Shown here one piece after another: positions 28,620 through 42,252 of a stretch of DNA of 64,000 nucleotides. Source of the stretch: Psychrobacillus sp. NEAU-3TGS. GTDB lineage: Bacteria > Bacillota > Bacilli > Bacillales_A > Planococcaceae. The notes beneath the pieces are model-generated. The model was not told the DNA's origin. It made no database searches and was given only the letters and a program-made list of their open reading frames with translations. The translations under genes and the position numbers were made by a program. The first letter of the stretch is position 1, and each line of letters begins with the position of its first letter. The stretch covers positions 124,001 to 188,000 of the forward strand of contig NZ_JAPNOZ010000012.1 of the NCBI RefSeq assembly GCF_029955155.1, in the 5' to 3' direction.

Positions 28620-29087
28620 ATGAAATTTAGGCTAGCCGAAAGAAAAGATATAGACCAGTTAATCCAAATGAGATGGGATTTCACGATTGAAGATAACGAT
28701 ATGAAAATATTTACAAAGAGTGATTTTGAGTCATTTAAAGCAGAATGCCATACTTTTTTAGAGAGTGCTTTGAAGAGTGAGACTTGGTTTATTTGGGTTG
28801 CAGAACAAGATGCGAAAATTATATCTCATATTTACATACAATTAATAGAAAAAGTGCCTCGTCCCGGCAGGATTACTTATCCATTTGCCTATATGACAAA
28901 TGTCTATACAGAAAAAGAATATAGAAAACAAGGAATTGGAAGTAAATTGATCACTACCATTAATGAGTGGGTGAGTGAGAATAACTATGAATTTATCATC
29001 GTTTGGCCAAGTGATGATAGCGTTGAGTACTATAAAAGAAATGGTTACGTTCGTTGTAAAGAACCTATGGAGTATTTCCCTTCTTAG
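28620..29087 (+). CDS. GNAT family N-acetyltransferase
   Basis: A 155-residue acetyltransferase. MKFRLAERKDIDQLIQMRW is the usual GNAT start; the acetyl-CoA loop is YRKQGIGSKLI near residue 101; and SVEYYKRNGYV is near the end. Substrate unknown. It is the first of a run of same-strand small genes (28620-31097). Confidence 0.87.
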   Translation: MKFRLAERKDIDQLIQMRWDFTIEDNDMKIFTKSDFESFKAECHTFLESALKSETWFIWVAEQDAKIISHIYIQLIEKVPRPGRITYPFAYMTNVYTEKEYRKQGIGSKLITTINEWVSENNYEFIIVWPSDDSVEYYKRNGYVRCKEPMEYFPS

Positions 29088-29121
29088 AAGAAAATAAAAA
29101 CCTGTATAAGGATGTTTTCAT

Positions 29122-29652
29122 ATGCGACTCTTTCATGTAAGTGAAGAAAGTAATATAGAATTTTTTGAACCAAGGATACCAACTCGAACAGATTTAGATC
29201 AGACGAAGGGGCTCGTATGGGCTATAAATGAAGAATGTTTGCCAAACTTTTTGACTCCAAGGAATTGCCCGCGTGTTTGCTACCATGTAGGGCCAAATAC
29301 TTCGGAGGCAGATAAACGAACCTATTTTTCTTCCAAGTCTTGCTCCTATGTAGTAGCGATAGAGCATACATGGTTCGAAGTGATGCAAAATACGACCTTG
29401 TACTTATATGAATTTAACACTAGTGAGTTTGCCCTTTTGGATGAAAATGCGGGTTATTTCATCAGTGATAAAAAGCAAATACCAAATAATAAAATCAAAA
29501 TAGATAATTTATTCACTGCTCTCTTTAAAAGGAATATTGAATTGCGATTGGTCGACAACTTATGGGATCTACATGCAGAAATTCAAATGACAACATTGAA
29601 TTGGTCTATGTGTAGAATGGGTTTTGCACAGAAAATGGAATTGGGGGATTAA
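29122..29652 (+). CDS. DUF6886 family protein
   Basis: A 176-residue protein beginning MRLFHVSEESNIEFFEPRIP, with GLVWAINEECLPNFLTPRNC and RVCYH. This is the pattern of the DUF6886 family, which in general form resembles ADP-ribosyl-transferase-like folds, though I cannot confirm a catalytic triad. The following gene starts 2 bp after its stop, so they are coupled. Function unknown. Confidence 0.6.
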   Translation: MRLFHVSEESNIEFFEPRIPTRTDLDQTKGLVWAINEECLPNFLTPRNCPRVCYHVGPNTSEADKRTYFSSKSCSYVVAIEHTWFEVMQNTTLYLYEFNTSEFALLDENAGYFISDKKQIPNNKIKIDNLFTALFKRNIELRLVDNLWDLHAEIQMTTLNWSMCRMGFAQKMELGD

Positions 29653-29653
29653 G

Positions 29654-30100
29654 ATGGAATTCAAAAAGGTAAAAAGAGAATTTAATTTAGTGGGCATGAA
29701 AAATAGAGGACTCTTTGCAAACTTTGGAAAAGAAGTACCTGTCTTTGCACATGAATTTTTAAAAAGAGCGGATGAGATAAAAAACCATACAGAAACAGAA
29801 ATTGCTCTTTACGAACCTAAAAGAACCGCTGACCAAAAAGAAGGCAATTATTATGTTGGATTAATCGTTGATGGTGCTTTAAATGAAATTCCGTCCGGCA
29901 TGGAATTGATCGAGATTACACACGATTATATGACTATTCGGGGGAAAATCTCAGAAATAACAGATCTTCATTCCAAATTATCTATATGGGGAGAACAACA
30001 AGGTTATAAAAGAAATATGGAATCTTATATTATTGAGACCTATCATCCAATTGAAAATAGTGAGGAAGAAGTGGAAATATATTTACCAATCTATACTTAA
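29654..30100 (+). CDS. GyrI-like / AraC effector-binding domain protein
   Basis: A 148-residue stand-alone small-molecule-binding domain of the GyrI/AraC-effector family. VGMKNRGLFANFGKEVPVF opens the domain, LIVDGALNEIPSGMELIEI forms the mid-strand, and a terminal ETYHPIENSEEEVEIYLPI is the typical family ending. It lacks a DNA-binding domain. The start ATG 29654 follows TTGGGGGATTAAG; a frame from 29624 overlaps the previous gene. Such proteins bind or hydrolyse hydrophobic ligands. Confidence 0.75.
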   Translation: MEFKKVKREFNLVGMKNRGLFANFGKEVPVFAHEFLKRADEIKNHTETEIALYEPKRTADQKEGNYYVGLIVDGALNEIPSGMELIEITHDYMTIRGKISEITDLHSKLSIWGEQQGYKRNMESYIIETYHPIENSEEEVEIYLPIYT

Positions 30101-30143
30101 GAATCAAAGTTTCTTAATGAAAAAAATAGAAAGGGGTTAACTA

Positions 30144-30668
30144 ATGTGTCCGAATAACATAGAAGGTCTTGAATTTAAGGTTGCTACCGGTAGAGACATC
30201 TCTAGAATAATCGAAATGTTAAAACAACTAGCTGTATGGATGAAGGACAATGAAATAAACCAGTGGCGGTTTCTATTAGAGGGAGGTGATGATGAAGAAA
30301 TTGAACAAGCAATTAACAACCAAGAAACATATATCGTCTTAAAAGATGATCAATTAGTTGCTACATTTACGCTTTTAAGTACACAGAGTGAGTGGGATAA
30401 GCATATTTGGGGAGAAGAATTAAACTCAAGTTCTCTTTATTTGCACCGTCTCGCAGTCATTCCCTCTTATATGAAAAAAGAATTAGGTAGCAGTATATTA
30501 AGCTGGATCCAAAATAATATGAACGGCCACCAAGACTATATTAAACTAGATTGCGTTTCAGATAACCCAAAGTTAAATGCCTTTTATAAGAGAAACAATT
30601 TTGAACTTATCGGGATAAAAGATGGTCATCATAAATATCAAAAAGAATTAAATTGTAGAAACACTTAA
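30144..30668 (+). CDS. GNAT family N-acetyltransferase
   Basis: A 174-residue acetyltransferase. Residues about 8-40 form the first strand and helix, LHRLAVIPSYMKKELGSSIL is the acetyl-CoA-binding region (the usual QGxG loop is degenerate: KKELGSS), and LDCVSDNPKLNAFYKRNNFE gives the conserved C-terminal part. An AAAGGGG site precedes it. Substrate unknown. Confidence 0.82.
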   Translation: MCPNNIEGLEFKVATGRDISRIIEMLKQLAVWMKDNEINQWRFLLEGGDDEEIEQAINNQETYIVLKDDQLVATFTLLSTQSEWDKHIWGEELNSSSLYLHRLAVIPSYMKKELGSSILSWIQNNMNGHQDYIKLDCVSDNPKLNAFYKRNNFELIGIKDGHHKYQKELNCRNT

Positions 30669-30680
30669 AGGAGCCCATCT

Positions 30681-31097
30681 ATGTTAAATTATAGTATTGT
30701 AGAGAAATTAAGCGAAAATCAATTAATAGAATTACATAGTTTATTTAAAAATGAATGGTGGACCCAGCATCGCGAGCTTGTGGAAATTAGAAAGATGGTA
30801 GACAACAGCAGCTTAGTGATCGGGTTAATTCATAATGAAACAAAAGAATTAATAGGATTCGCTAGAGTGATAACGGATGCTGTATATAGAGCATTCATTT
30901 TTGACGTGATGACGAAAGAAACCTATAGGAATAGTGGTATTGGTAACATCTTGATGAATTATTTATTGGAGCATCCGTTTATTCGAGAGGTTGAACGGAT
31001 AGAGTTATACTGTCCTGACAGATTAGTTGGATATTACGAGAAGTTCGGATTTTCAAAGGATGTGAATGGCAGTAATTTAATGAGACTAAGAATATAA
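30681..31097 (+). CDS. GNAT family N-acetyltransferase
   Basis: A 138-residue acetyltransferase starting 12 bp after the previous one. LIGFARVITDAVYRAFIFDV precedes the acetyl-CoA loop YRNSGIGNILMNYLLEH, and DRLVGYYEKFGFS closes the fold. Tandem GNAT genes suggest duplication or a shared resistance/modification role, but their sequences differ considerably. Confidence 0.85.
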   Translation: MLNYSIVEKLSENQLIELHSLFKNEWWTQHRELVEIRKMVDNSSLVIGLIHNETKELIGFARVITDAVYRAFIFDVMTKETYRNSGIGNILMNYLLEHPFIREVERIELYCPDRLVGYYEKFGFSKDVNGSNLMRLRI

Positions 31098-31667: not shown

Positions 31668-33061
31668 TCAAGACAGTATTTGAAGCTTTTCTAACTTTCG
31701 ATAAAGAGTTCGAATACTCATCCCTAAATCCTTTGCAACCATTTGCTTGCCATTGTAATTGTACCCATAGATATTAAGTTTTTGAGTTATTATATCTCTC
31801 TCTACATCTACTAATTCTGCATTCTTTTGTGGTTGCTGAACATCTTTGCAACTTGCTAAAAGATATGGAGGAAGTGATCGTTCACTTAAAGCATTTTCTG
31901 TTTCAAAATTCATGCTATATTCGATAACGTTTTCAAGTTCTCTTAAATTACCAGGCCAATGATAAGTAGATAGCACTTCCATAAAACCATTGGTACAAGA
32001 GTTGAAATACTTACCAGATCTATGTTTCAAGTTTTCTTTCATTTCTTCTACTAGTAAGGGTAAATCGAGCAGCCTCTCTCTCAAAGGGGGTATTGTAATT
32101 GGAATTACGTTTAAACGATAGAAAAGGTCTGATCTAAACTTTTTCTCTTTAATGGATTCTTCTAGAGGTTGATTTGTAGCGGCAATTATCCTTGCATTTA
32201 CCTTTTTCACACTAGTTCCGCCAACCCGTTGGATTATCCCATCTTGTAAAACTTTTAAAAGTTTCGATTGCAAGTGAATGGGAAGCTCCGCAATTTCATC
32301 TAAGAATAATGTTCCGTTATCCGCAGATTCAAAATAACCTTTTTTTCCCCCTTTCCTAGCGTTGGTAAATGCACCGCTTTCGTAACCAAATAATTCACTC
32401 TCAAATAAACTCTCTGGTATACTCGCACAGTTTATTTCTACTAGGGGCCCGTTACTCACTGTGCTATTTTCATGAATATACTTTGCCAGCATACTTTTCC
32501 CAGTCCCGGTCTCTCCTGTAATGAGTACTGTAGAAGTACTATTTCGTATCTTCTTCACTAATTCTGTAATATGTTTGAATGCTTGACTGTTTCCAAAAAT
32601 GTAATTGCCTGAAGAATAAATGGGAGAAAGATTGCTTTTAAATTCATTAGAATCCCTTAAAATTGATATGATAATATCTTTTAACCGAGTTAACCATTCT
32701 GTGTATAAATCTTTTTGTTCGATTAAAATACTTTTATTTTGAGGGGATAGACTAACCAATGAAAGATAGCCAAACTTTTCCCCATTTAACATCATATCTT
32801 GAATAAGTTCTGCTTTCGATGGACAATTATTAAAAAAATGGCATCCTTCACACATTTTCATATCTCCTGGCTGATGAAGTAGAGTGATGTGGTTTCCGTA
32901 TATTTTATCAAAAAAGGAACATGTACCTTCATTCCTTTTTGGGTAATATAATCCTCAGTTGCGGCTATTAAACGTCCTTCTTTATCAAAACAAGCAATAT
33001 CGACTTGCAAAAGCCCTGAAAACGCTTGTATCACTTTTGAAATAGAACTTAATAAAATCAC
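31668..33061 (-). pseudogene. Sigma-54-dependent transcriptional activator, frameshifted
   Basis: About 464 residues if one base is restored at the homopolymer 32910-32915, giving VPFFDKIYGNHITLLHQPGD between the two frames. It has an N-terminal sensor with a Cys cluster (CEGCHFFNNC), an AAA+ domain (Walker A GETGTGKS, Walker B GTLFLDEIAELP, sigma-contact loop GAFTNA instead of GAFTGA) and a C-terminal Fis-type helix-turn-helix (VAKDLGMSIRTLYRKLEKL). It diverges from two operons with -24/-12 promoters, so it very likely activates them. The length is one base short of whole codons; a sequencing deletion is likely. Confidence 0.85.
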
Positions 33062-33248
33062 CTAATCACCTCTTTAAAAAAATATTCAACTTAAAACACA
33101 TTGTATTTATAAAATTCGGAATAGTCAATATACAAAAGTTTGATATGTCATGTCTTATGTCAAAAGTGTCAGAAGCATTTTACTGTTTTCTCTTTCCAAT
33201 TTTACTAATTTCCTTGTCACCGTCATACTCTTAATCCATCTACTAAAG

Positions 33249-33265
33249 TTGGCATAGAAATTGCA
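33249..33265 (+). promoter_or_regulatory. Sigma-54 promoter of the first SDR gene
   Basis: TTGGCATAGAAATTGCA matches the -24/-12 consensus, with GG and GC separated by exactly 10 bp. Transcription would start near 33277, leaving a leader of about 140 nt. Confidence 0.85.
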
Positions 33266-33343
33266 AGAGTTATATGTAAATACAGATTTTAAAAAATTCA
33301 GTGCAAAAGATATTAGTACACTGAATTATCAGGGAGGAAGTAA

Positions 33344-33358
33344 ATGAAAAAAATTTAA
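33344..33358 (+). other. Four-codon minigene in the SDR leader
   Basis: A strong GGGAGGAAG followed by ATG AAA AAA ATT TAA lies in the untranslated leader downstream of the sigma-54 promoter. It may be a regulatory minigene or the relic of a longer small frame. Confidence 0.3.
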
Positions 33359-33414
33359 ACAAATAGAATATCAAAACAAAATAAAATTTTGAAATTGGAA
33401 AGGTGGATACAATT

Positions 33415-34161
33415 ATGAGTAATTATCAAGATAGTCTAATGGATAAACGTGTTGTTATCACTGGAGGTGCAAGTGGCATTGGTCTGGCTACTGCTCTTCG
33501 ATTTGCAGATGAAAAAGCTATTGTCACTATTATTGATAATAATAAAGAGTCATTAGATAGAGTATTGAGAGAATATCCGACTTTAAAACACGGTATCTTC
33601 GCGGATGTAAGCAATTATGAAAGTGTACAAAATGCCTTTCTAGAAATGGATGACTTGGCTGGTGGTATTGATATCCTTATTGCAAATGCCGGCATAAGCG
33701 TTAGATCTAGTTTTCTAGATATTACTCCGGAACAGTGGGATAAAGTAATCGGAGTTAATCTCAATGGTATATTCTATGCTTCACAAGAAGCGGCAAAAAG
33801 AATGATTAAACAGGAAAATGGAGTAATCTTAATGACAGCTTCCACTAACGGTTTAGTGGGACATCCGAATTATGCGGATTACAATGCCTCAAAGGCTGGT
33901 GTGAATCTTTTAGCCCGAACGATGGCATTGGAATTAGCACCTACAATTCGGGTAAATACAGTTTGTCCAGGTTATGTACTTACTCCTATGCAAATTGCGG
34001 AATATAGCCCAGAAGCATTGGTTCAAGTAAATGAAAAAATTCCATTAAAACGACATGCTCAACCTGAAGAAGTTGCAGCATTATTTGCTTTCTTAGCATC
34101 TTCAGAAGCGAAGTATATTACTGGACAACATATTCCAATAGACGGCGGAGAGCTAGCTTAA
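33415..34161 (+). CDS. SDR family oxidoreductase
   Basis: A 248-residue classical SDR. The cofactor loop is TGGASGIGLATALRF near residue 16, IDNNKES after strand 2 has the Asp that favours NAD+, NAGIS lies near 85 and the active site is Ser...YNASKAG. The ending TGQHIPIDGGELA is that of a FabG-like dehydrogenase. The start ATG 33415 follows AAAGGTGG; GTG at 33403 lies within that site. It has its own sigma-54 promoter and is followed by an inverted repeat. It probably oxidises a hydroxyl of the same substrate family as the next operon. Confidence 0.87.
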   Translation: MSNYQDSLMDKRVVITGGASGIGLATALRFADEKAIVTIIDNNKESLDRVLREYPTLKHGIFADVSNYESVQNAFLEMDDLAGGIDILIANAGISVRSSFLDITPEQWDKVIGVNLNGIFYASQEAAKRMIKQENGVILMTASTNGLVGHPNYADYNASKAGVNLLARTMALELAPTIRVNTVCPGYVLTPMQIAEYSPEALVQVNEKIPLKRHAQPEEVAALFAFLASSEAKYITGQHIPIDGGELA

Positions 34162-34186
34162 CTTCACTAGTTTTTACCGAGTGACG

Positions 34187-34224
34187 TAGATGACAAAACA
34201 GGCAAACCTTTGTCATCTATGACA
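34187..34224. promoter_or_regulatory. Nested palindromes between the SDR genes
   Basis: TAGATGACAAA (34187-34197) and TTTGTCATCTA (34209-34219) form an 11-bp inverted repeat. The right half also contains the perfect palindrome TGTCATCTATGACA. About 80-115 bp upstream of a sigma-54 promoter, this is where an enhancer-binding activator sits. There is no T tract, so a terminator is less likely. Confidence 0.55.
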
Positions 34225-34300
34225 CTAGATATTAACTGAATTGATTTCTAATCGTTAGCAATTTCCTTTGTTTTATATGTGCTTCTTTACTTTAAAAAAG

Positions 34301-34317
34301 TTGGCACAAAAATTGCA
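34301..34317 (+). promoter_or_regulatory. Sigma-54 promoter of the SDR2/GcvP-like operon
   Basis: TTGGCACAAAAATTGCA is essentially the consensus -24/-12 element (TGGCAC-N5-TTGCA), 34 bp before the SDR2 start codon. Confidence 0.92.
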
Positions 34318-34350
34318 ATATTAATTTACGTAGAAGGGGGAGAGATGTAA

Positions 34351-35130
34351 TTGAATTACGAAGACTTACTAGGAGTTAAAAATAAAGTGGTTGCGATAAC
34401 AGGTGCTGCGTCAGGAATAGGTTTAGCTACTGCAAATTTATTTGGGGAACTAGGTGCCTCAGTAGCATTATTAGATATCAATGAAGACCAAGGAAAAAAA
34501 GTTGCTATGAACATGATTAATAAAGACATAAATGCAAAATTTTACAAATGCAATGTGACATCTTCTGAGGATTGCAGAGTAACTGCTAAAAGAATTGAAG
34601 ATGACTTCGGTAAAATTGATGTACTTTTTAATAATGCAGGAGTCATCCGGCGAAAAACAGTTGTTGATCATTCTGAGGAGGATTGGGATTTAGTACTAGA
34701 TGTTTCTCTAAAAGGAGCATTTCTATTGTCTAAATATATTATTCCTATCATGGATAAAAATGGTGGGGGAAGCATTGTTAACACTGGATCTGGATGGGGA
34801 TTGAAAGGTGGCGATTTAGCAGCTTCATATTGTGCAGCGAAAGCTGGTGTTGTGAATTTAACAAAAGCAATGGCGATTGATCATGGACCACAAAATATTC
34901 GAGTGAATTGTATTTGTCCTGGAGATACAGACACTCCTCTCCTAAGGGATGAAGCAAAACAACTAAAACATGATGAGGATACTTTTTTAGCATCTTCTGC
35001 GGTTGATAGACCACTAAATCGAATTGGTACCCCTCTAGATATAGGTAAAGGTGTATTGTTCTTGGCTAGTGATATGGCTTCTTGGGTCACAGGAACTGTT
35101 CTGACGGTTGATGGCGGAGGCCTAGCATAA
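34351..35130 (+). CDS. SDR family oxidoreductase, first gene of the GcvP-like operon
   Basis: A 259-residue classical SDR: TGAASGIGLATANLF near residue 17, LLDINEDQ (Asp after strand 2, favouring NAD+), NNAGVI near 92, and active-site Ser in NTGSGWG with YCAAKAG. The start is TTG at 34351, after GGGGGAGAG. It differs clearly from the preceding SDR, so the two probably act on different intermediates. The GcvPA-like gene begins 20 bp later. Confidence 0.88.
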   Translation: MNYEDLLGVKNKVVAITGAASGIGLATANLFGELGASVALLDINEDQGKKVAMNMINKDINAKFYKCNVTSSEDCRVTAKRIEDDFGKIDVLFNNAGVIRRKTVVDHSEEDWDLVLDVSLKGAFLLSKYIIPIMDKNGGGSIVNTGSGWGLKGGDLAASYCAAKAGVVNLTKAMAIDHGPQNIRVNCICPGDTDTPLLRDEAKQLKHDEDTFLASSAVDRPLNRIGTPLDIGKGVLFLASDMASWVTGTVLTVDGGGLA

Positions 35131-35150
35131 TAAATGAGGAGGAAATTGTT

Positions 35151-36551
35151 ATGAAAGAAATGAAAAAAGTTGCACATCCTTATATCCCAAATACAGTACC
35201 TGAAATCAAAGAGCAAATGTTAAAAGAAATTGGAGTAAAGACGATTGAGGAGTTATTTTCCGGGATTCCAGAAGAGCTGCATTACCGTAAAACATTGCAC
35301 ATTCCGAAAGCGCTTTCGGAATATGAACTACGTAGATATTTGGAGGGATTATTATCTAAAAATACGAGTACAACTGAATATCTGAACTTTTTAGGTGCTG
35401 GTTGTTGGAATCATTTTATCCCAGCTATTTGTGATGAAATCAATTCTCGTGCAGAGTTTGTAACTGGGTATGCAGGGGATCCATACGAAGATCACGGTCG
35501 CTTCCAAGCTCTTTTTGAGTACCAGAGTTTAATGGCAGAGTTAGTCGATATGGATGTTGTCAACGTACCGACATTTGATTGGGCACAAGCAGCGGCAACG
35601 TCTATTCGTATGGCAACCCGAATAACAAATCGTACAGATGTATTATTACCCAAAACAATCTCACCTGATCGGCTAAAAGTTATTAAAAACTATTGCTCTC
35701 CATATATAAATGTAAGTTTGATTGACTATAAAGAAGATACTGGACTAATTGATTTAGAAGATTTGGAAAATAAAATCTCTTCTAATACAGCAGCTGTCTA
35801 TTTTGAAAATCCATCCTATTTAGGGTTTTTAGAAACACAAGGTCAACAAATTAGTAAACTAGCAAAAAAACATGGAGCAATTACGATTGTGGGAGTAGAT
35901 CCTAGTTCTCTAGGTATTGTCGAGCCACCTAGTCACTATGGTGCTGAAATTGTTTGTGGAGATCTTCAACCTTTAGGCATGCATATGAATTACGGTGGTG
36001 GTCAATCAGGGTTTATTGCAACACACGATGATATCAAATTTGTGCAAGAATACCCATCCAGATTATTTGGAATTGCACCTACAGTTGTAGAAGGTGAGTA
36101 TGGGTTTGGTGATGTGTATTATGATCGAACTTCCTTTGCACAAAGAGAAAAAGGAAAAGAATCCGTAGGTACACAGACGGCATTATGGGGAATTACTGCT
36201 GGAGTTTATTTATCTTTGATGGGACCTGAAGGAATGTATGAGCTTGGGAAATCTATTATGCAAAAATCACAATATGCAATGCAACAGATAGGAAGTATTC
36301 CAAATGTAGTAGCATCACGATTTGAATCAACTAGTTTTAAAGAGTTCGTTGTGGACTTCTCCTATACTGGAAAATCAGTAAAAGAGATTAATAAGTATCT
36401 TTTAGACAATAGAATTTTTGGAGGTAAAGACCTCTCTGAAGATTTTCCAGAATTAAAACAAAGTGCTTTATTCTGTGTAACAGAAATTCATACAAAAGAA
36501 GATATCGACCAGCTTGTTTCCGTTATTAAGCAGTGCATAAACTCAAAATGA
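35151..36551 (+). CDS. Divergent glycine decarboxylase subunit 1 paralogue (GcvPA-like)
   Basis: A 466-residue protein of the P-protein N-terminal-half family. PYIPNTVPEIKEQMLKEIG and FLGAGCWNHFIPAICDEI match GcvPA. However, the usual TAYTPYQPEISQG loop reads TGYAGDPYEDHGRFQ, and the usual YDGGTAAAEA reads FDWAQAAATS, both at the active-site mouth. Known glycine cleavage enzymes keep these loops, so glycine is unlikely to be the substrate (inference). No gcvT, gcvH or lpd is nearby. It should pair with the next gene, 25 bp downstream. Confidence 0.82.
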   Translation: MKEMKKVAHPYIPNTVPEIKEQMLKEIGVKTIEELFSGIPEELHYRKTLHIPKALSEYELRRYLEGLLSKNTSTTEYLNFLGAGCWNHFIPAICDEINSRAEFVTGYAGDPYEDHGRFQALFEYQSLMAELVDMDVVNVPTFDWAQAAATSIRMATRITNRTDVLLPKTISPDRLKVIKNYCSPYINVSLIDYKEDTGLIDLEDLENKISSNTAAVYFENPSYLGFLETQGQQISKLAKKHGAITIVGVDPSSLGIVEPPSHYGAEIVCGDLQPLGMHMNYGGGQSGFIATHDDIKFVQEYPSRLFGIAPTVVEGEYGFGDVYYDRTSFAQREKGKESVGTQTALWGITAGVYLSLMGPEGMYELGKSIMQKSQYAMQQIGSIPNVVASRFESTSFKEFVVDFSYTGKSVKEINKYLLDNRIFGGKDLSEDFPELKQSALFCVTEIHTKEDIDQLVSVIKQCINSK

Positions 36552-36576
36552 AATAAATTGAAAAGGATGAATTGCT

Positions 36577-38154
36577 ATGAAAAAAATTAACCGCGAACAC
36601 AAGGTACGGAATTTTCAGCAAGCTAAATGGGATGAACCGATTATTTTTGAACTTCATAATAGTGGTGAAAGAGGTGTTTTACTCCCTCACGTAGAAAGTG
36701 AAATTGTAGATTGTGTAGGAGATGGGCTATCAGCTTTACCTGCATCTTTAATTAGAAAATCAGCACCTAAATTACCTGAAATTTCACAAAACAGAGTGCT
36801 TCGTCACTATTTAAGACTTTCACAAGAGATGTTGGGAGGCGCTCTTAACGTTGAAATAGGTCAAGGTACTTGTACAATTAAATATTCTCCTAAGATTAAT
36901 GAAGAAATTGCTTCATCTCCAAAAATGACAGAGCTTCATCCTCTACAAGATGAAAGTACCGTGCAAGGTATTTTAGAAATAACACATAAATTAGATCTTT
37001 GTTTGAAAGAAATTTCCGGTATGGATTACTTTTCTTTCCAGCCGGGCAGTGGAACACAGTCGTTGTTTACAATGGCTTCCATCGTTCGAGCTTTTCATGA
37101 AAGCAATGGGGAAGGTGATCAGCGAGATGAAATTATTACAACTATCTTCTCGCATCCATCTCAAGCAGCAACTGCAGCTGTAAAAGGATATAAAATTATT
37201 ACATTGTATCCTGATAAAGACGGTTTTCCTGATCTTGAAAAGTTAAAAGAAGTAGTATCTGACCGTACAGCTGGATTTGTAGTAGCAAATCCAGAAGATA
37301 CTGGTATATACAATACACGTATAAAAGAATTTACAAAGGTAGTTCATGATGCCGGTGGGATTTGCTATTACGATCAGGCAAATGCGAATGGTTTGCTTGG
37401 AATTACTAGGGCTAAAGAAGCAGGATTTGATATGTGCTTCTTTAATCTTCATAAAACTTTTTCTACACCACATGCATGCGGAGGTCCAGCAACTGGGGCG
37501 CTAGGAGTAGTTGCAAAACTAAAAGAGTTTTTGCCTGGTCCAATAGTTGAAAAGCAAGGTGATCAATATACTTTAAAAAGTGATATGAAGCATAGCATTG
37601 GAAAAGTTCGTTCGTTTCAAGGGGTGCCTCAGATGATAGTCCGCGCATATGCATGGATTCTAGCGATTGGTGCAGAAGGATTAAAAGATGTTGCTGAAAT
37701 CGCAGTCTTGAACAACAATTACTTATATCACCATATTTTGAAAATTCGTGGTGCAAGTGCTCCATATATTAAAGGTCAACGATTGGAGCAAGTGAGATAT
37801 AGTTGGGAGCAGTTAACTCGAGAGACGGGAGTTACAACCGATGATATATCAAGAAGAATGGCCGATTTTGCGCATCAATATTGGACTAGTCATCATCCAT
37901 ATGTTGTTCCTGAACCTTTTACGTTAGAGCCAACTGAGTCAGCTTCGAAATCAGATTTAGACGAGTATATTGCTTCGTTAACATATATTGCAAACGAAGC
38001 ATATGAAAATCCTGAAAAAGTAAAAAATGCCCCTTATAATAGCACTATTCACCGAGTAGATGAGCAAGATTTCTTTGAGAACCCTGAGAAATGGGCAATT
38101 ACATGGAGGTCTTACTTAAAAAAGAGTAAAGAAATAGAAAAAATAAGATCATAA
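36577..38154 (+). CDS. Divergent glycine decarboxylase subunit 2 paralogue (GcvPB-like)
   Basis: A 525-residue PLP-dependent protein of the P-protein C-terminal-half family. The PLP lysine is in FNLHKTFSTPH (about residue 293), and GTCTIKYSPKINEE and YYDQANANGLLG match GcvPB landmarks. The Gly-rich loop usually reading GGGGPG is ACGGPA, and the usual DSAHGTNPA reads IFSHPSQAAT. PLP chemistry is retained while substrate and lipoyl-protein contacts are changed. It probably forms an alpha2beta2 enzyme with the preceding subunit. Reaction unknown: decarboxylation or retro-aldol cleavage are options. Confidence 0.83.
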   Translation: MKKINREHKVRNFQQAKWDEPIIFELHNSGERGVLLPHVESEIVDCVGDGLSALPASLIRKSAPKLPEISQNRVLRHYLRLSQEMLGGALNVEIGQGTCTIKYSPKINEEIASSPKMTELHPLQDESTVQGILEITHKLDLCLKEISGMDYFSFQPGSGTQSLFTMASIVRAFHESNGEGDQRDEIITTIFSHPSQAATAAVKGYKIITLYPDKDGFPDLEKLKEVVSDRTAGFVVANPEDTGIYNTRIKEFTKVVHDAGGICYYDQANANGLLGITRAKEAGFDMCFFNLHKTFSTPHACGGPATGALGVVAKLKEFLPGPIVEKQGDQYTLKSDMKHSIGKVRSFQGVPQMIVRAYAWILAIGAEGLKDVAEIAVLNNNYLYHHILKIRGASAPYIKGQRLEQVRYSWEQLTRETGVTTDDISRRMADFAHQYWTSHHPYVVPEPFTLEPTESASKSDLDEYIASLTYIANEAYENPEKVKNAPYNSTIHRVDEQDFFENPEKWAITWRSYLKKSKEIEKIRS

Positions 38155-38160
38155 GATTTT

Positions 38161-38199
38161 CTCCCCATTAACATATCAAAATCACTTGTTTATGGGGAG
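38161..38199 (+). other. Intra-operon stem-loop
   Basis: Perfect arms CTCCCCAT/ATGGGGAG with a 23-nt loop between the GcvPB-like and ABC genes, without a T tract. It may stabilise an mRNA end or lower expression of the transporter part. Confidence 0.45.
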
Positions 38200-38231
38200 T
38201 CATTGATATTAAAAGTAAGGTGGTGTATCGC

Positions 38232-38954
38232 TTGATAAAAGTATCAAATTTGAAAAAATCTTTTGGGGATTTAGAAGTTCTAAAAGATATTAATGTGGTA
38301 ATAAACCAAAAAGAAGTAGTAGTTGTCATTGGTCCTTCTGGATCAGGAAAATCAACATTCTTACGTTGTTTAAACAAATTAGAAGAGACAACTTCCGGAA
38401 CAATTCTATTAGATAATATTAACCTTACAGATAAAAAGATCAATATCAATAAAGTGCGACAAGATATAGGAATGATTTTTCAGCAGTTCAACCTATTTCC
38501 TCATAAGACAGTTTTAGAAAATATTATTATTGCCCCTATGAAAATACGAAAAAAAAGCAGACAAGAAGCGGAAAGAATGGCATATAATCTACTCGAAAAG
38601 TTGGGTTTAGTTGAGAAAGCAGAAACATATCCCGACTCGCTTTCTGGGGGGCAAAAACAAAGGATTGCAATAGCAAGGGCGCTTGCTATGGAGCCAAAAG
38701 TAATGCTTTTTGATGAACCAACTTCAGCACTAGACCCTGAAATGGTTGGAGAAGTTCTAAATGTGATGAAAGAACTAGCAAAAGAAGGAATGACGATGGT
38801 TGTTGTTACGCATGAAATGGGGTTTGCACGTGAAGTAGGGGATCGTGTAATTTTTATGGATGAAGGATATATCATCGAAGAAGCTAGCCCAACCCAATTA
38901 TTTAGTAAACCTCAACATGAGCGTACAAAGGCATTCCTATCGAAAATTTTATAA
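38232..38954 (+). CDS. Polar amino-acid ABC transporter, ATP-binding protein
   Basis: A 240-residue ATPase of the GlnQ/HisP class. Walker A is GPSGSGKST (near residue 35), the Q-loop is [12 protein letters not shown], the signature is [14 protein letters not shown] (near 138) and Walker B is [13 protein letters not shown]. The start is TTG at 38232, 9 bp after AAGGTGG; GTG codons at 38220-38223 lie in that site. With the next two genes it forms a complete importer. Confidence 0.92.
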
Positions 38955-38997
38955 AAAATAATAGATAGTTTGTAAATATAGAGATGGAGGAAAAGTG

Positions 38998-39813
38998 ATG
39001 AAAAAGAATTCATTGTTCGCCGTAATGATTTTATGCACAACTCTAATTTTGTTATTAGCAGGATGCGGAAACAAGGAAGATTCATCGAATGCTAGTGCTA
39101 TCGTACAAGAAAGTGAAGAGGATTTGAAATTAGTGCATGATGGAAAACTTACTTTTGCTATGAGTGGTTTACTTAAACCCTTAAACTATAAGGATAATGG
39201 CAAACTTGTTGGTTTTGATGTTGAAATTGGAACCGAAATTGCAAAACGTATTGGGCTGGAGCCGAATCCAGTAACAAATCCTTGGGAAACAATACTTCAG
39301 GGATTAAAAGGAAATAAATACGATGTAATCATAGGAAGTATGACTGCCACAGAAGAACGATTAAAACAAGTTGACTTTTCTGACCCATATTATATTTCCG
39401 GTGCGCAAATTTTTGTCGCAGAAACCAACGACACCATTCAATCAAAAGATGATTTAGGTGAGAAATCAGTTGGTGTAATGCAAGCTAGCACTCATAAAGA
39501 AGTAGCAGAGACATTATCGAACGATGTGAAAGGATACCCTAGTGAAATATTTGCTTTACAAGATTTAATACCAGGACGTATTGATGCAGTGATTACTGAT
39601 AAAATCGTCGGAGTCTCTGCGATTAAGGAACAGGGAATGAAAATTAAAACAGTTGATGGTGTCCTAAATAGAGAAGAAATTGCTGTAGCAATTAATAAAG
39701 ATCATCAAGCTTTACTAGACAAGATTAATGTAGCAATCGCAGAAATTATTGAAGATGGCACATATGAAAAAATAAGTATGAAATGGTTTGGCGTAAATAT
39801 TATGGAGGACTAA
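38998..39813 (+). CDS. Amino-acid ABC transporter, substrate-binding lipoprotein
   Basis: A 271-residue type II periplasmic-binding-like lipoprotein (lipobox LLLAGCGN). The SBP_bac_3 landmarks are GFDVEIGTEIAKRIGLEP near residue 78 and the ligand-site region GSMTATEERLKQVDFSDPYY near 118. It captures a polar amino acid or derivative for the permease at 39856. Which one cannot be read from sequence. The ATG start follows GGAGG. Confidence 0.9.
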   Translation: MKKNSLFAVMILCTTLILLLAGCGNKEDSSNASAIVQESEEDLKLVHDGKLTFAMSGLLKPLNYKDNGKLVGFDVEIGTEIAKRIGLEPNPVTNPWETILQGLKGNKYDVIIGSMTATEERLKQVDFSDPYYISGAQIFVAETNDTIQSKDDLGEKSVGVMQASTHKEVAETLSNDVKGYPSEIFALQDLIPGRIDAVITDKIVGVSAIKEQGMKIKTVDGVLNREEIAVAINKDHQALLDKINVAIAEIIEDGTYEKISMKWFGVNIMED

Positions 39814-39855
39814 ACTACAACTATAAGGTTCCCTTAGTAAAGGAGATAACTGACA

Positions 39856-40545
39856 ATGAATTTCATCGAAAGTATTGTGTCCATTATCCAAAAACATGGA
39901 ACTGCCTTTTTAGAAGCAACTACTATAACGATATCTATAACAGCTGTTTCTCTAGTAATTGCAACTGTAATAGGTTTAGTATTTGCCTTCTTTAAAGTAT
40001 CAAATATTTGGATACTTGTGAAACTAGCAGATCTCTATATCTTTATAGTTCGTGGTCTTCCATTAATAGTATTAATCATGTTTCTCTACTATGGAATTTC
40101 CAGTGTTATTGTACTAAGTGATTTTATCGCTGGTGCGGTTGCATTAGGGATTCATTCGGGTGCATATTTAGCAGAAATTTTCAGAGGAGCAATCCAATCT
40201 GTAGATAGAGGTCAAAACGAGGCGGCACGATCGCTTGGAATGACTGCTCCTTTAACAATGAGTACGATTATTTTACCTCAAGCTTTTAAACGAGCGATTC
40301 CTGCTTTGGGTAATCAGTTTATCATCGGTCTTAAAGATTCATCCCTTGTTGCTTATATTGCAGTTACTGAGCTATTTAGTCATGCCTTAACTGCTTCAGC
40401 TGAAAACTATATGCCATTTGAAACATATCTAGTTGTAGGTTTCTATTATTTAGCATTAGTATTAATATTCACGCTATTACTCAATTACGTTGAGAATAGA
40501 TTAGATACCGGGGGAGTAGCAAAAAATTTAAAAAGTAAGCTTTGA
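39856..40545 (+). CDS. Amino-acid ABC transporter, permease
   Basis: A 229-residue HisM/GlnP-type permease with about five membrane helices. The EAA coupling motif is EAARSLGMTAPLTMSTIILP near residue 127. IFIVRGLPLIVLIMFLYYG is the usual early motif. A single permease gene suggests a homodimer. The cassette lacks a second permease, as in many Gln/Arg-type importers. Confidence 0.92.
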   Translation: MNFIESIVSIIQKHGTAFLEATTITISITAVSLVIATVIGLVFAFFKVSNIWILVKLADLYIFIVRGLPLIVLIMFLYYGISSVIVLSDFIAGAVALGIHSGAYLAEIFRGAIQSVDRGQNEAARSLGMTAPLTMSTIILPQAFKRAIPALGNQFIIGLKDSSLVAYIAVTELFSHALTASAENYMPFETYLVVGFYYLALVLIFTLLLNYVENRLDTGGVAKNLKSKL

Positions 40546-40599
40546 CTTCAAAAAAACAAAAGTCACAGGTGTAAAGCATATAGAAAAGGAGTATGAAGT

Positions 40600-42252
40600 A
40601 TGATTACTACAAAAAATGAAGTTCTGAAATTGACAGAAGAACTAGTTCGAGTTGAAAGTATAGTAGAAACGCCAGGTGAAATTGATGCGGCTAAGAAAAT
40701 ATATGAAATGATCTCTGAGATGCCTTACTTTATCCAAAAACCTGACCAAGTAATTCTTTCAAAAACTAGTGATGACCAATTGGAAAGATATAACGTCCTG
40801 GCGTTTGTAAAAGGAATAAAAGAAAAAAGTAACAATAAAACGATTATCTTAATGGGGCATCTGGATACAGTTGGCATCGATGATTATACAAATTTAAAAG
40901 AGGTTGCATGTAATCCTGATGAACTAATGAAAAAATTACATGATGAACAACTTCCGGAATTAGTAAAAGAGCAGCTCGATTCAGGAGAATGGTATTTTGG
41001 TAGAGGTGTATTAGACATGAAAAGTGGTGTAGCTAGCCATATGTCACTACTAAAGTATTTTTCCGAACACCCAGAAGAATTAGCCGGAAATCTTGTTTTC
41101 TTTTCGGAATGTGACGAAGAAGTAAGTTCCAAAGGCGTTTTATCAGGACTTAAAGATTTAAAAAAATGGAAAGAAGAGCGTGATTTCGAATATATAGGAT
41201 TAATAAATTCGGATTTTGTTGCTCCTTTATATGACGGAGATGTGAATCGTTATGTTTACAAAGGAACTGTTGGTAAATTACTTCCTTCTTTTTTCATTAC
41301 GGGGGCGGAAACACATGTTGGTTCTGCTTTCGAAGGATTAGATCCCAATTATATTGCAGCTGAATTGACAAGACAAATTAGCTATAATCCAGAACTTTGC
41401 GATCATCATTTAGGGGAAACACCTGCTCCTCCAATTTCTTTAAAACAGATGGATTTAAAGCCTAACTATACTGTTCAAACTGCTCTTTCTGCTTATGTAT
41501 ACTTTAATCTCTTCGTGCATTCATGGTCTCCTCAAGAGGTTCTAACCAAGCTTACGGAGCAAGCAGTAATCGCTTTTGAAAACGCTATCAACACAATGAA
41601 CGAACGTTATGAAAGTTTTTGTAAACTAAGTCAGCAACCTTTTAAGCAATTACCATGGAAATCTCGGGTAATCTTGTATGAAGACATGACGAAATCGTTA
41701 AAAGAGGAGCATGGGGAAGTTTTTGTAGCGCATATGAACAAGTTTAAAGCGAATCTACTATTAGATGAAAAATTAGATACAAGAATGTTTGCGGCTAGGG
41801 TTATAGAAGAGGAATGGAAATGGATGAAAGATCAAAGGCCAGCAATTATTTTACTATATTCATCCCTATATTCCCCTTGTTTAGACATTACAGGTAAAAA
41901 TGAACAAGAAGAAAATTTGATTTCGGCTTTAGATAAAGCAATAGAAAAGGTCCAGTCACAATATAAATATCCAATCGTTTCTAAAAATTACTTCCCGTAT
42001 ATTTGCGACATGAGCTGTGTTGCTTTAAAAGATGATGAAAAATCTATCCAATCTGTAATTAATAATAATCCTGCTTGGGGTACAAAGCATTATGTGAATT
42101 ATGAAGATATAAGAGAGATTAATGTACCTGCCATTAATATTGGACCTTATGGTTATGATGCTCACAAACGCTATGAGCGTATGGAGATTGAATTTTCTAC
42201 CGAAGTCATTCCAACAATTACAAAGGAAATAATTAAAACGCTTATTGGTTAA
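40600..42252 (+). CDS. rocB: RocB-like M20 family peptidase
   Basis: A 550-residue M20-fold protein resembling RocB, the uncharacterised third product of the B. subtilis arginine catabolic rocABC operon. Metal-site motifs are ILMGHLDTVGIDDY near residue 92, GRGVLDMKSGVASHM near 132 and FSECDEEVSSKG near 169; the catalytic Glu is in CDEEVS. It probably hydrolyses an N-acyl or amide bond of the imported substrate, or a pathway intermediate. Last gene of the sigma-54 operon. Confidence 0.82.
   Translation: MITTKNEVLKLTEELVRVESIVETPGEIDAAKKIYEMISEMPYFIQKPDQVILSKTSDDQLERYNVLAFVKGIKEKSNNKTIILMGHLDTVGIDDYTNLKEVACNPDELMKKLHDEQLPELVKEQLDSGEWYFGRGVLDMKSGVASHMSLLKYFSEHPEELAGNLVFFSECDEEVSSKGVLSGLKDLKKWKEERDFEYIGLINSDFVAPLYDGDVNRYVYKGTVGKLLPSFFITGAETHVGSAFEGLDPNYIAAELTRQISYNPELCDHHLGETPAPPISLKQMDLKPNYTVQTALSAYVYFNLFVHSWSPQEVLTKLTEQAVIAFENAINTMNERYESFCKLSQQPFKQLPWKSRVILYEDMTKSLKEEHGEVFVAHMNKFKANLLLDEKLDTRMFAARVIEEEWKWMKDQRPAIILLYSSLYSPCLDITGKNEQEENLISALDKAIEKVQSQYKYPIVSKNYFPYICDMSCVALKDDEKSIQSVINNNPAWGTKHYVNYEDIREINVPAINIGPYGYDAHKRYERMEIEFSTEVIPTITKEIIKTLIG

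Follow-up and report, generated by a model that had tools for sequence, protein, structure and literature searches.

A sigma-54-controlled Psychrobacillus gene cluster around a divergent P-protein-like pair, with a tentative role in hydroxylysine breakdown

What does a glycine decarboxylase-like enzyme pair do in a cluster of transport and oxidation genes that contains no other part of the glycine cleavage system (GCS)? The question is raised by positions 31668-42252 of a 64,000-nucleotide stretch of DNA from the soil bacterium Psychrobacillus sp. NEAU-3TGS (contig NZ_JAPNOZ010000012.1, positions 124,001 to 188,000), referred to here as the window. The cluster encodes a pyridoxal 5'-phosphate (PLP)-dependent pair of GcvPA- and GcvPB-like subunits (PA and PB), two short-chain dehydrogenases (SDR1 and SDR2), a sigma-54-dependent activator, a complete polar amino-acid importer and a RocB-like M20 protein. 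By open reading frame (ORF) calls and family scans, all nine genes lie at the positions and belong to the families given in the original prediction, the PA-PB pair, the importer and the RocB-like protein among them. Its statement that gcvT, gcvH and lpd are absent from the locus also held; canonical gcvT-gcvPA-gcvPB (G000:C3, L139) and gcvH (C13) sit elsewhere in the genome, which was not searched as a whole for lpd. The best overall explanation, adopted tentatively, is that PA and PB form an H-protein-independent pair derived from P-protein, which would act after SDR2 in converting 5-hydroxylysine to glutamate and methylamine. SDR2, PA and PB are called the triad below.

A P-protein-like pair apart from glycine cleavage

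PA (35151..36551, forward strand; GDC-P, 3.3e-62) and PB (36577..38154, forward strand), the PLP-binding subunit, both pass the NCBIfam equivalog models, GcvPA with 504.7 bits (cut-off 364) and GcvPB with 568.5 bits (cut-off 441). PB is 39% identical to the canonical GcvPB of the same genome, and its closest named relatives are from Psychrobacillus species, P. lasiicapitis first (98%). To compare the two families, 94 PA and 95 PB paralogue rows (83 and 84 distinct) were aligned with 21 canonical rows each. At a threshold of at least 95%, paralogues and canonical sequences are fixed on the same residue in 62 columns of PA and 113 of PB, and on different letters in 47 columns of PA (5 gap, 42 residue) and 69 of PB (6 gap, 63 residue).

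The pattern of retention and loss is specific. PB keeps the PLP lysine in the FNLHKTFSTPH (NLHK) motif, as had been predicted. The Asp in YDQAN is retained too, as is the SHPSQ loop's His; the PLP-contacting residues, as listed in PMC7850488, are kept apart from a Ser to Thr change in GTCT. The loop alterations predicted for the window proved common to the whole paralogue family. The first substrate loop, YTPYQPEISQG, reads YAGDPYEDHG in the window and in the paralogue consensus. In the window's letters MYDGxTALAEA has become TFDWAQAAATS (across the clade, DGxTALAEA to DWAQAAATS), AHGTNPA has become SHPSQAA (HGTNPA to HPSQAA) and GGGGPG has become ACGGPA (CGGPA in the clade). The paralogue consensus retains none of the conserved canonical substrate loops YTPYQPEISQG, HGTNPA and GGGGPG, and the predicted H-docking loop has changed from REQHIRREKATSNIC to RTSFAQREKGKESVG. 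PMC7259800 names Y161 and Y164 of human GLDC as active-site residues and R373 and K376 as predicted H-protein contacts. By our own mapping from this source, Y161 and Y164 fall in the YTPYQPEISQG loop, which keeps the first of these tyrosines but has lost the second. The REQHIRREKATSNIC loop holds R373 and K376; of these, the former is changed and the Lys equal to K376 kept. The rebuilding of the first loop with loss of its second Tyr suggests that the carboxylate side of the site has changed.

The tree with canonical sequences that had been proposed as a check places the pair outside canonical GcvPB. In a maximum-likelihood tree of 54 PB rows, the 22 canonical (100/100), 25 paralogous (100/97) and 7 plasmid-borne (100/99) sequences each occupy one side of a branch, with the program's warning that long branches meet. 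A search with PB in Foldseek ranks known P-proteins first. Since the predicted PB structure is weak (mean predicted local distance difference test score, pLDDT, 60.5), no pocket was read from it.

The plasmid-borne pairs form a sister clade. A tblastn search of plasmids with PA gave 147 records, the best eight 40-49% identical, and the pairs (L165-L172) come from plasmids of Rhodococcus, Gemmobacter, Paracoccus, Sphingomonas, Roseicitreum, Antarctobacter and the haloarchaeon Natronosalvus. Each of the seven annotated records carries an alcohol or aldo-keto dehydrogenase no more than 9 kb away, and in six an NAD-kinase-like gene directly precedes PA-PB. Two records have acyl-CoA synthetases, two have M20 proteins and two have APC permeases; a primary-amine oxidase occurs in that of Gemmobacter. 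Judged by their gene content, these contexts would suit an amino-ketone-cleaving family.

The pair also occurs in genomes where no GCS could be detected. Of 22 triad genomes tested, 19 have both GcvT and GcvH. In the other three (G112, G140 and G281), which are 99-100% complete (G281 with 6% contamination), the pair is intact with its clade motifs, and no other GcvPB match, no GcvT and no GcvH were found. Among 49 named triad genomes, of unstated completeness, ten have no GcvT match; all ten also lack a canonical GcvPB match, and five of them a GcvH match. In total, eight genomes (3 + 5) carry the pair with no canonical P-, T- or H-protein found, so the co-occurrence with H- and T-proteins that marks a GCS component does not hold. 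Separately, five Paenibacillus genomes (G300, G301, G303, G307 and G312; loci L076, L077, L079, L084 and L090) have two GcvH-like matches each and neither a GcvT nor a canonical GcvPB match, and the triad-bearing genome G094 has a second, distant GcvT-family match (G094:C51:89800-90519). Glycine cleavage is very unlikely to be what PA and PB carry out.

A conserved core served by exchangeable modules

To describe the setting of the pair, 80 loci with flanks of at most 10 kb were kept from 221 confirmed in a scan of species genomes. SDR2 (34351..35130, forward strand; Pfam adh_short_C2, 1.3e-66) is present in 79 of the 80 and lies directly before PA-PB in 75, which makes SDR2-PA-PB a conserved unit. 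Of the remaining five, L059 is truncated at its ends, L077, L079 and L085 have an additional ORF called in between, and L096 has no called SDR2. The co-occurrence search suggested in the original prediction, which took the entire gene set to be conserved together, thus bore out a near-universal triad; the rest of the set did not follow. SDR1 (33403..34161, forward strand; adh_short_C2, 6.5e-60) is found in 8/80 loci, and importer plus RocB-like gene, a module also found without the triad, in 10/80 as one variant only.

Most relatives of the triad stand beside sugar genes. A GH2 β-galactosidase is present in 55 loci and a GH63 α-glucosidase in 35 (GH, glycoside hydrolase family; either in 62, both in 28), and a sugar ATP-binding cassette (ABC) permease pair in 56, which indicates a glycosylated aglycone. 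Within the flanks, no locus of the 80 combines a glycosidase with importer and RocB-like gene. Homologues of galK, galT or galM, as we named them from their sequences, are additionally present in some loci of Neobacillus and Sporosarcina. In the G085 family, taken as Paenibacillaceae, 13 of 197 genomes searched carry the paralogue; among 13 copies fetched from 12 of these genomes, some of which overlap the 80 loci, 11 have GH2 immediately before SDR2 and two have GH63 immediately after PB.

In the careful PB tree the importer and RocB loci of Psychrobacillus and those of Viridibacillus/Lysinibacillus type lie in two different groups (99/98 and 100/98) that both include sugar-type rows; in a quick tree of all 80 loci they form three groups, the two smaller weakly placed. 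Because the two locus types interleave on the tree and share an activator family, both probably feed one aglycone. Two differing triad copies occur in Neobacillus kokaensis (L037/L051) and in Sporosarcina limicola (L045/L070); G290 is another single organism with two copies, and some such copies differ in module context. It is probable, then, that a single core enzyme set is supplied by interchangeable modules, all releasing the same aglycone. Three points are new here: the pair occurs where no H-protein is detectable, SDR2-PA-PB forms a conserved core, and the modules beside it (glycosidase, or importer and RocB) are exchangeable.

The two module types also meet in their regulation. The activator (31668..32861, reverse strand) has the AAA+ domain (Pfam Sigma54_activat, 1.2e-67) and a Fis-type helix-turn-helix (HTH_8, 2.7e-6), as expected of the gene predicted here. 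Its ORF lacks the conserved N-terminal sensor part, which sits in another frame just upstream (32861-33065) and is intact in L034-L036; the frameshift may reflect a mistake in sequencing or assembly, or else a genuine disruption of the gene. A -24/-12 promoter-like site was located before each dehydrogenase, in agreement with the prediction. The site before SDR1, TGGCATAGAAATTGC (33250-33264, forward strand), is kept in L034-L036 and was not found in the other five SDR1-bearing loci; the one before SDR2 is TGGCACAAAAATTGC (34302-34316, forward strand). The pattern TGGCAY-N5-TTGC matches three times in the 64 kb against 0.13 expected, the third time inside an unrelated gene. An activator is present in 25/80 loci, ten of the importer and RocB type, nine of the sugar type (in one, L069, as a distant and downstream match) and six with neither module. 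The site before SDR2, at at least 9/10 matches, is found in 22 of these 25 loci against 0/54 others, and in about 0.2% of shuffled upstream DNA. The cluster thus has the -24/-12 sites and the AAA+ activator of a sigma-54-controlled operon. Taken with the fixed loop changes and the tree, this promoter-activator link supports the prediction of a catabolic cluster under sigma-54 control, built around a P-protein pair that has been repurposed and lies outside canonical GcvP.

The importer of the window comprises a GlnQ/TcyN-like ATPase (38220..38954; ABC_tran, 1.7e-39), a family 3 solute-binding lipoprotein (38995..39813; SBP_bac_3, 4.3e-40) and a permease (39856..40545; BPD_transp_1, 9.4e-23; HEQRo_perm_3TM above cut-off), all on the forward strand. 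The RocB-like M20 metallohydrolase follows (40600..42252, forward strand; Peptidase_M20, 2e-9). Aligned with the genome's own RocB and ten relatives, it retains the M20-type motifs GHLDTV, GRGVLDMKSG, ECDEEV and DAH, which have metal roles. It is 32% identical to the own RocB, several of its relatives are named RocB, and comparison with solved structures gave only weak M20 matches (best 0.0057). Its context is the triad and the importer and not that of arginine or ornithine (roc) genes. The own RocB (L138, G000:C2:358000-372000) adjoins an amino-acid permease and two arginine-deiminase/DDAH-like genes, by our naming. RocB-like matches of at least 60% without the triad occur in 6/101 relatives of the window, and the importer adjoins the RocB-like gene in three (G053, G032 and G070; L127, L128 and L131) of eight such triad-less loci fetched. 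The cluster gives a context for testing what RocB-like M20 proteins do. Just before it, at 28620-31097, lie several GNAT-like acetyltransferase genes, named from sequence by eye.

Proposed chemistry and its rivals

With glycosidase or RocB-like modules beside SDR2-PA-PB, the predicted order, in which a conjugate is hydrolysed, then oxidised by an SDR and then cleaved by the PLP pair, fits the loci. It is likely that SDR2 and then the pair act on one common aglycone. Whether this aglycone is 5-hydroxylysine is evenly balanced in our judgement. The GH63 enzyme of the relatives' loci has a GH63-type sequence and fold; in the structure model of one, the closest known structure is YgjK, of which one entry holds Glc-α-1,2-Gal. 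According to the excerpt of PMC8626586, this is the collagen disaccharide carried on hydroxylysine. A GH63 enzyme near a Glc-α-1,2-Gal-binding one, together with GH2 and an amino-acid importer, closely fits hydroxylysine glycosides.

The proposed steps are as follows. In most relatives a sugar ABC importer together with GH63 and/or GH2 would free the aglycone from a glycoside; in the window's variant the amino-acid importer and the RocB-like amidohydrolase would handle its uptake in the form of a plain or acylated amino acid. If the aglycone is 5-hydroxylysine, it is the 5-hydroxyl that bears Gal or Glc-α-1,2-Gal in collagen, and SDR2 would oxidise this hydroxyl to a ketone, giving 5-oxolysine. 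The H2N-CH2-CO- end of this aminomethyl ketone would resemble glycine with its carboxylate replaced by an acyl group, and PLP on the 6-amine could labilise C5-C6 as it does C1-C2 of glycine. Hydration or water-assisted cleavage of that bond would release glutamate, and protonation of the aminomethyl carbanion, in the absence of an H-protein, would give methylamine. PLP-dependent cleavage beside a ketone has precedents in kynureninase and 2-amino-3-ketobutyrate CoA ligase, and P-protein alone can slowly yield methylamine. Cleavage of 5-oxolysine at C5-C6 to glutamate and methylamine is possible, if somewhat doubtful. It is more doubtful that Glc-Gal-hydroxylysine is imported intact, deglycosylated inside the cell, oxidised and cleaved to these products, with the plasmid clade acting likewise on other amino ketones.

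Several observations weigh against this proposal. The excerpt of PMC12930750, citing Friede and Henderson (1976), describes hydroxylysine degradation in Pseudomonas fluorescens through lysine monooxygenase and racemase routes and calls information otherwise scarce; given such lysine-type breakdown, there is in principle no need for a new route. In the G085 family, where all M9 collagenase matches fall within one genus, triad genomes show no clear excess of them (2/13 against 11/184 other genomes, p 0.21), nor of strong Pro_racemase matches (2/13 against 7/184, p 0.11). Among the 101 relatives of the window, M9 matched in 17, nine above the cut-off and 0/9 of these with the triad; the triad genome G094 lies below the cut-off. 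A collagen signal by co-occurrence was accordingly set aside, both M9 and the proline-racemase family being not significant. Of 71 triad genomes tested (the sets overlap), 58 have GcvT, which makes use of an H-protein possible there. No methylamine-handling gene was seen in triad loci, where no search was aimed at one. Among solved structures the binding lipoprotein is best matched by AncQR and by 3vv5, an amino-acid binding protein; the comparison singles out no lysine-like ligand, the closest relatives being general amino-acid binders. The RocB-like protein has no obvious job in a route from free hydroxylysine, and the module to which it belongs is found in loci lacking the triad as well. 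Finally, 7/80 loci show neither module: in four from Brevibacillus (L093, L103, L107 and L110) only activator and triad, side by side, are in view, and the others are L058, whose activator is more distant, L070, which has an amino-acid importer and no RocB-like gene, and L085. Among the literature matches listed, nothing dealt with this clade or with a bacterial hydroxylysine-glycoside route, and GH65 was not named among the best 50 matches in either of two lists, from which nothing firm follows.

The main rival keeps the ancestral chemistry of the fold. PA and PB would be a stand-alone α-decarboxylase of a hydroxylated or keto amino acid, breaking the C-COOH bond, protonating the product and releasing CO2 and an amine; SDR2 would act either earlier or later. 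A plain decarboxylase would fit the changed substrate loop, the eight pair-bearing genomes in which no GcvH was found and the primary-amine oxidase near the Gemmobacter relative. The loss of the second Tyr with the rebuilding of the YTPYQPEISQG loop, however, suggests an altered carboxylate side, and additional enzymes would be required for decarboxylated hydroxylysine, whereas four loci show activator and triad only; this reading we consider unlikely. Somewhat less probable still is that the same SDR-then-PLP logic serves an amino ketone made from another glycosylated amino alcohol. The chemistry may be general, given the dehydrogenases near the plasmid pairs, some with APC permeases, acyl-CoA synthetases and M20 deacylases, and the collagen link finds no support in co-occurrence; the GH63 nearest to a Glc-α-1,2-Gal-binding enzyme, GH2 and the amino-acid importer nevertheless suit hydroxylysine glycosides.

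Two further readings bring back the H-protein. In genomes that keep GcvH, the pair might cleave an amino ketone and hand the aminomethyl group to lipoyl-GcvH, feeding methylene-tetrahydrofolate. P-protein ancestry and the frequent GcvT speak for such a transfer, but the same pair with the same motifs is found where GcvH is not detectable, and the docking loop is changed, though the Lys equal to human K376 remains; this is very improbable. As a general rule, passage of the C1 unit to lipoyl-GcvH and folate was dropped in view of triad genomes without detectable GcvH or GcvT. The least probable reading, to which we give hardly any credence, is a glycine decarboxylase placed in another operon and using the genome's own H-, T- and L-proteins. 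The equivalog cut-offs and database names agree with it, as do gcvT and gcvH elsewhere in the window's genome, but it would have to accommodate a separate clade, 105 fixed residue differences, some in the predicted H-docking loop, and eight pair-bearing genomes with no canonical P, T or H found.

Relation to known systems

Among 120 proteins listed, the clade's named members are mostly labelled glycine dehydrogenase subunits, and in genome-scale models they will be counted as glycine cleavage, also for species where no other specific GCS part was found. If the proposed conversion of 5-hydroxylysine is right, a decarboxylase that handles an aminomethyl carbanion has been turned into an amino-ketone-cleaving enzyme, and the cluster would represent a second, different bacterial route for hydroxylysine and a first proposal for how the collagen glycosides of hydroxylysine are used. 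Were the plasmid clade to act in the same way, a whole branch of amino-ketone-cleaving enzymes would derive from P-protein.

Breakdown of 5-hydroxylysine in Pseudomonas fluorescens is also bacterial, but uses lysine-type enzymes, and the excerpt of PMC12930750 names no P-protein relative. Animal PGGHG, according to the excerpt of PMC8626586, removes Glc from Glc-α-1,2-Gal-hydroxylysine, and belongs to GH65, a family different from that of the locus enzyme. The GH63 of the relatives shares its fold and catalytic domain with YgjK, solved with Glc-α-1,2-Gal, and with glucosylglycerate and mannosylglycerate hydrolases. In contrast to this likeness, identity is about 17-23%, and the window's cluster has no GH63 gene. 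The plasmid pairs, sister to the clade on the PB tree, resemble it in a similarly shortened YTPYQPEISQG loop and in nearby dehydrogenases; they differ in sequence (40-50% identity), in the NAD-kinase-like gene before PA and in their transporters. Kynureninase and 2-amino-3-ketobutyrate CoA ligase likewise use PLP to cleave a C-C bond by a ketone, but belong to other PLP families, with water or CoA as nucleophile. The canonical P-protein (Thermus, 1WYT) is alike in sequence family, in its two subunits and in the PLP lysine and its contacts, whereas the paralogue stands apart in its changed substrate and predicted H-docking loops, in its linkage to SDR2 and in its occurrence without detectable GcvT or GcvH.

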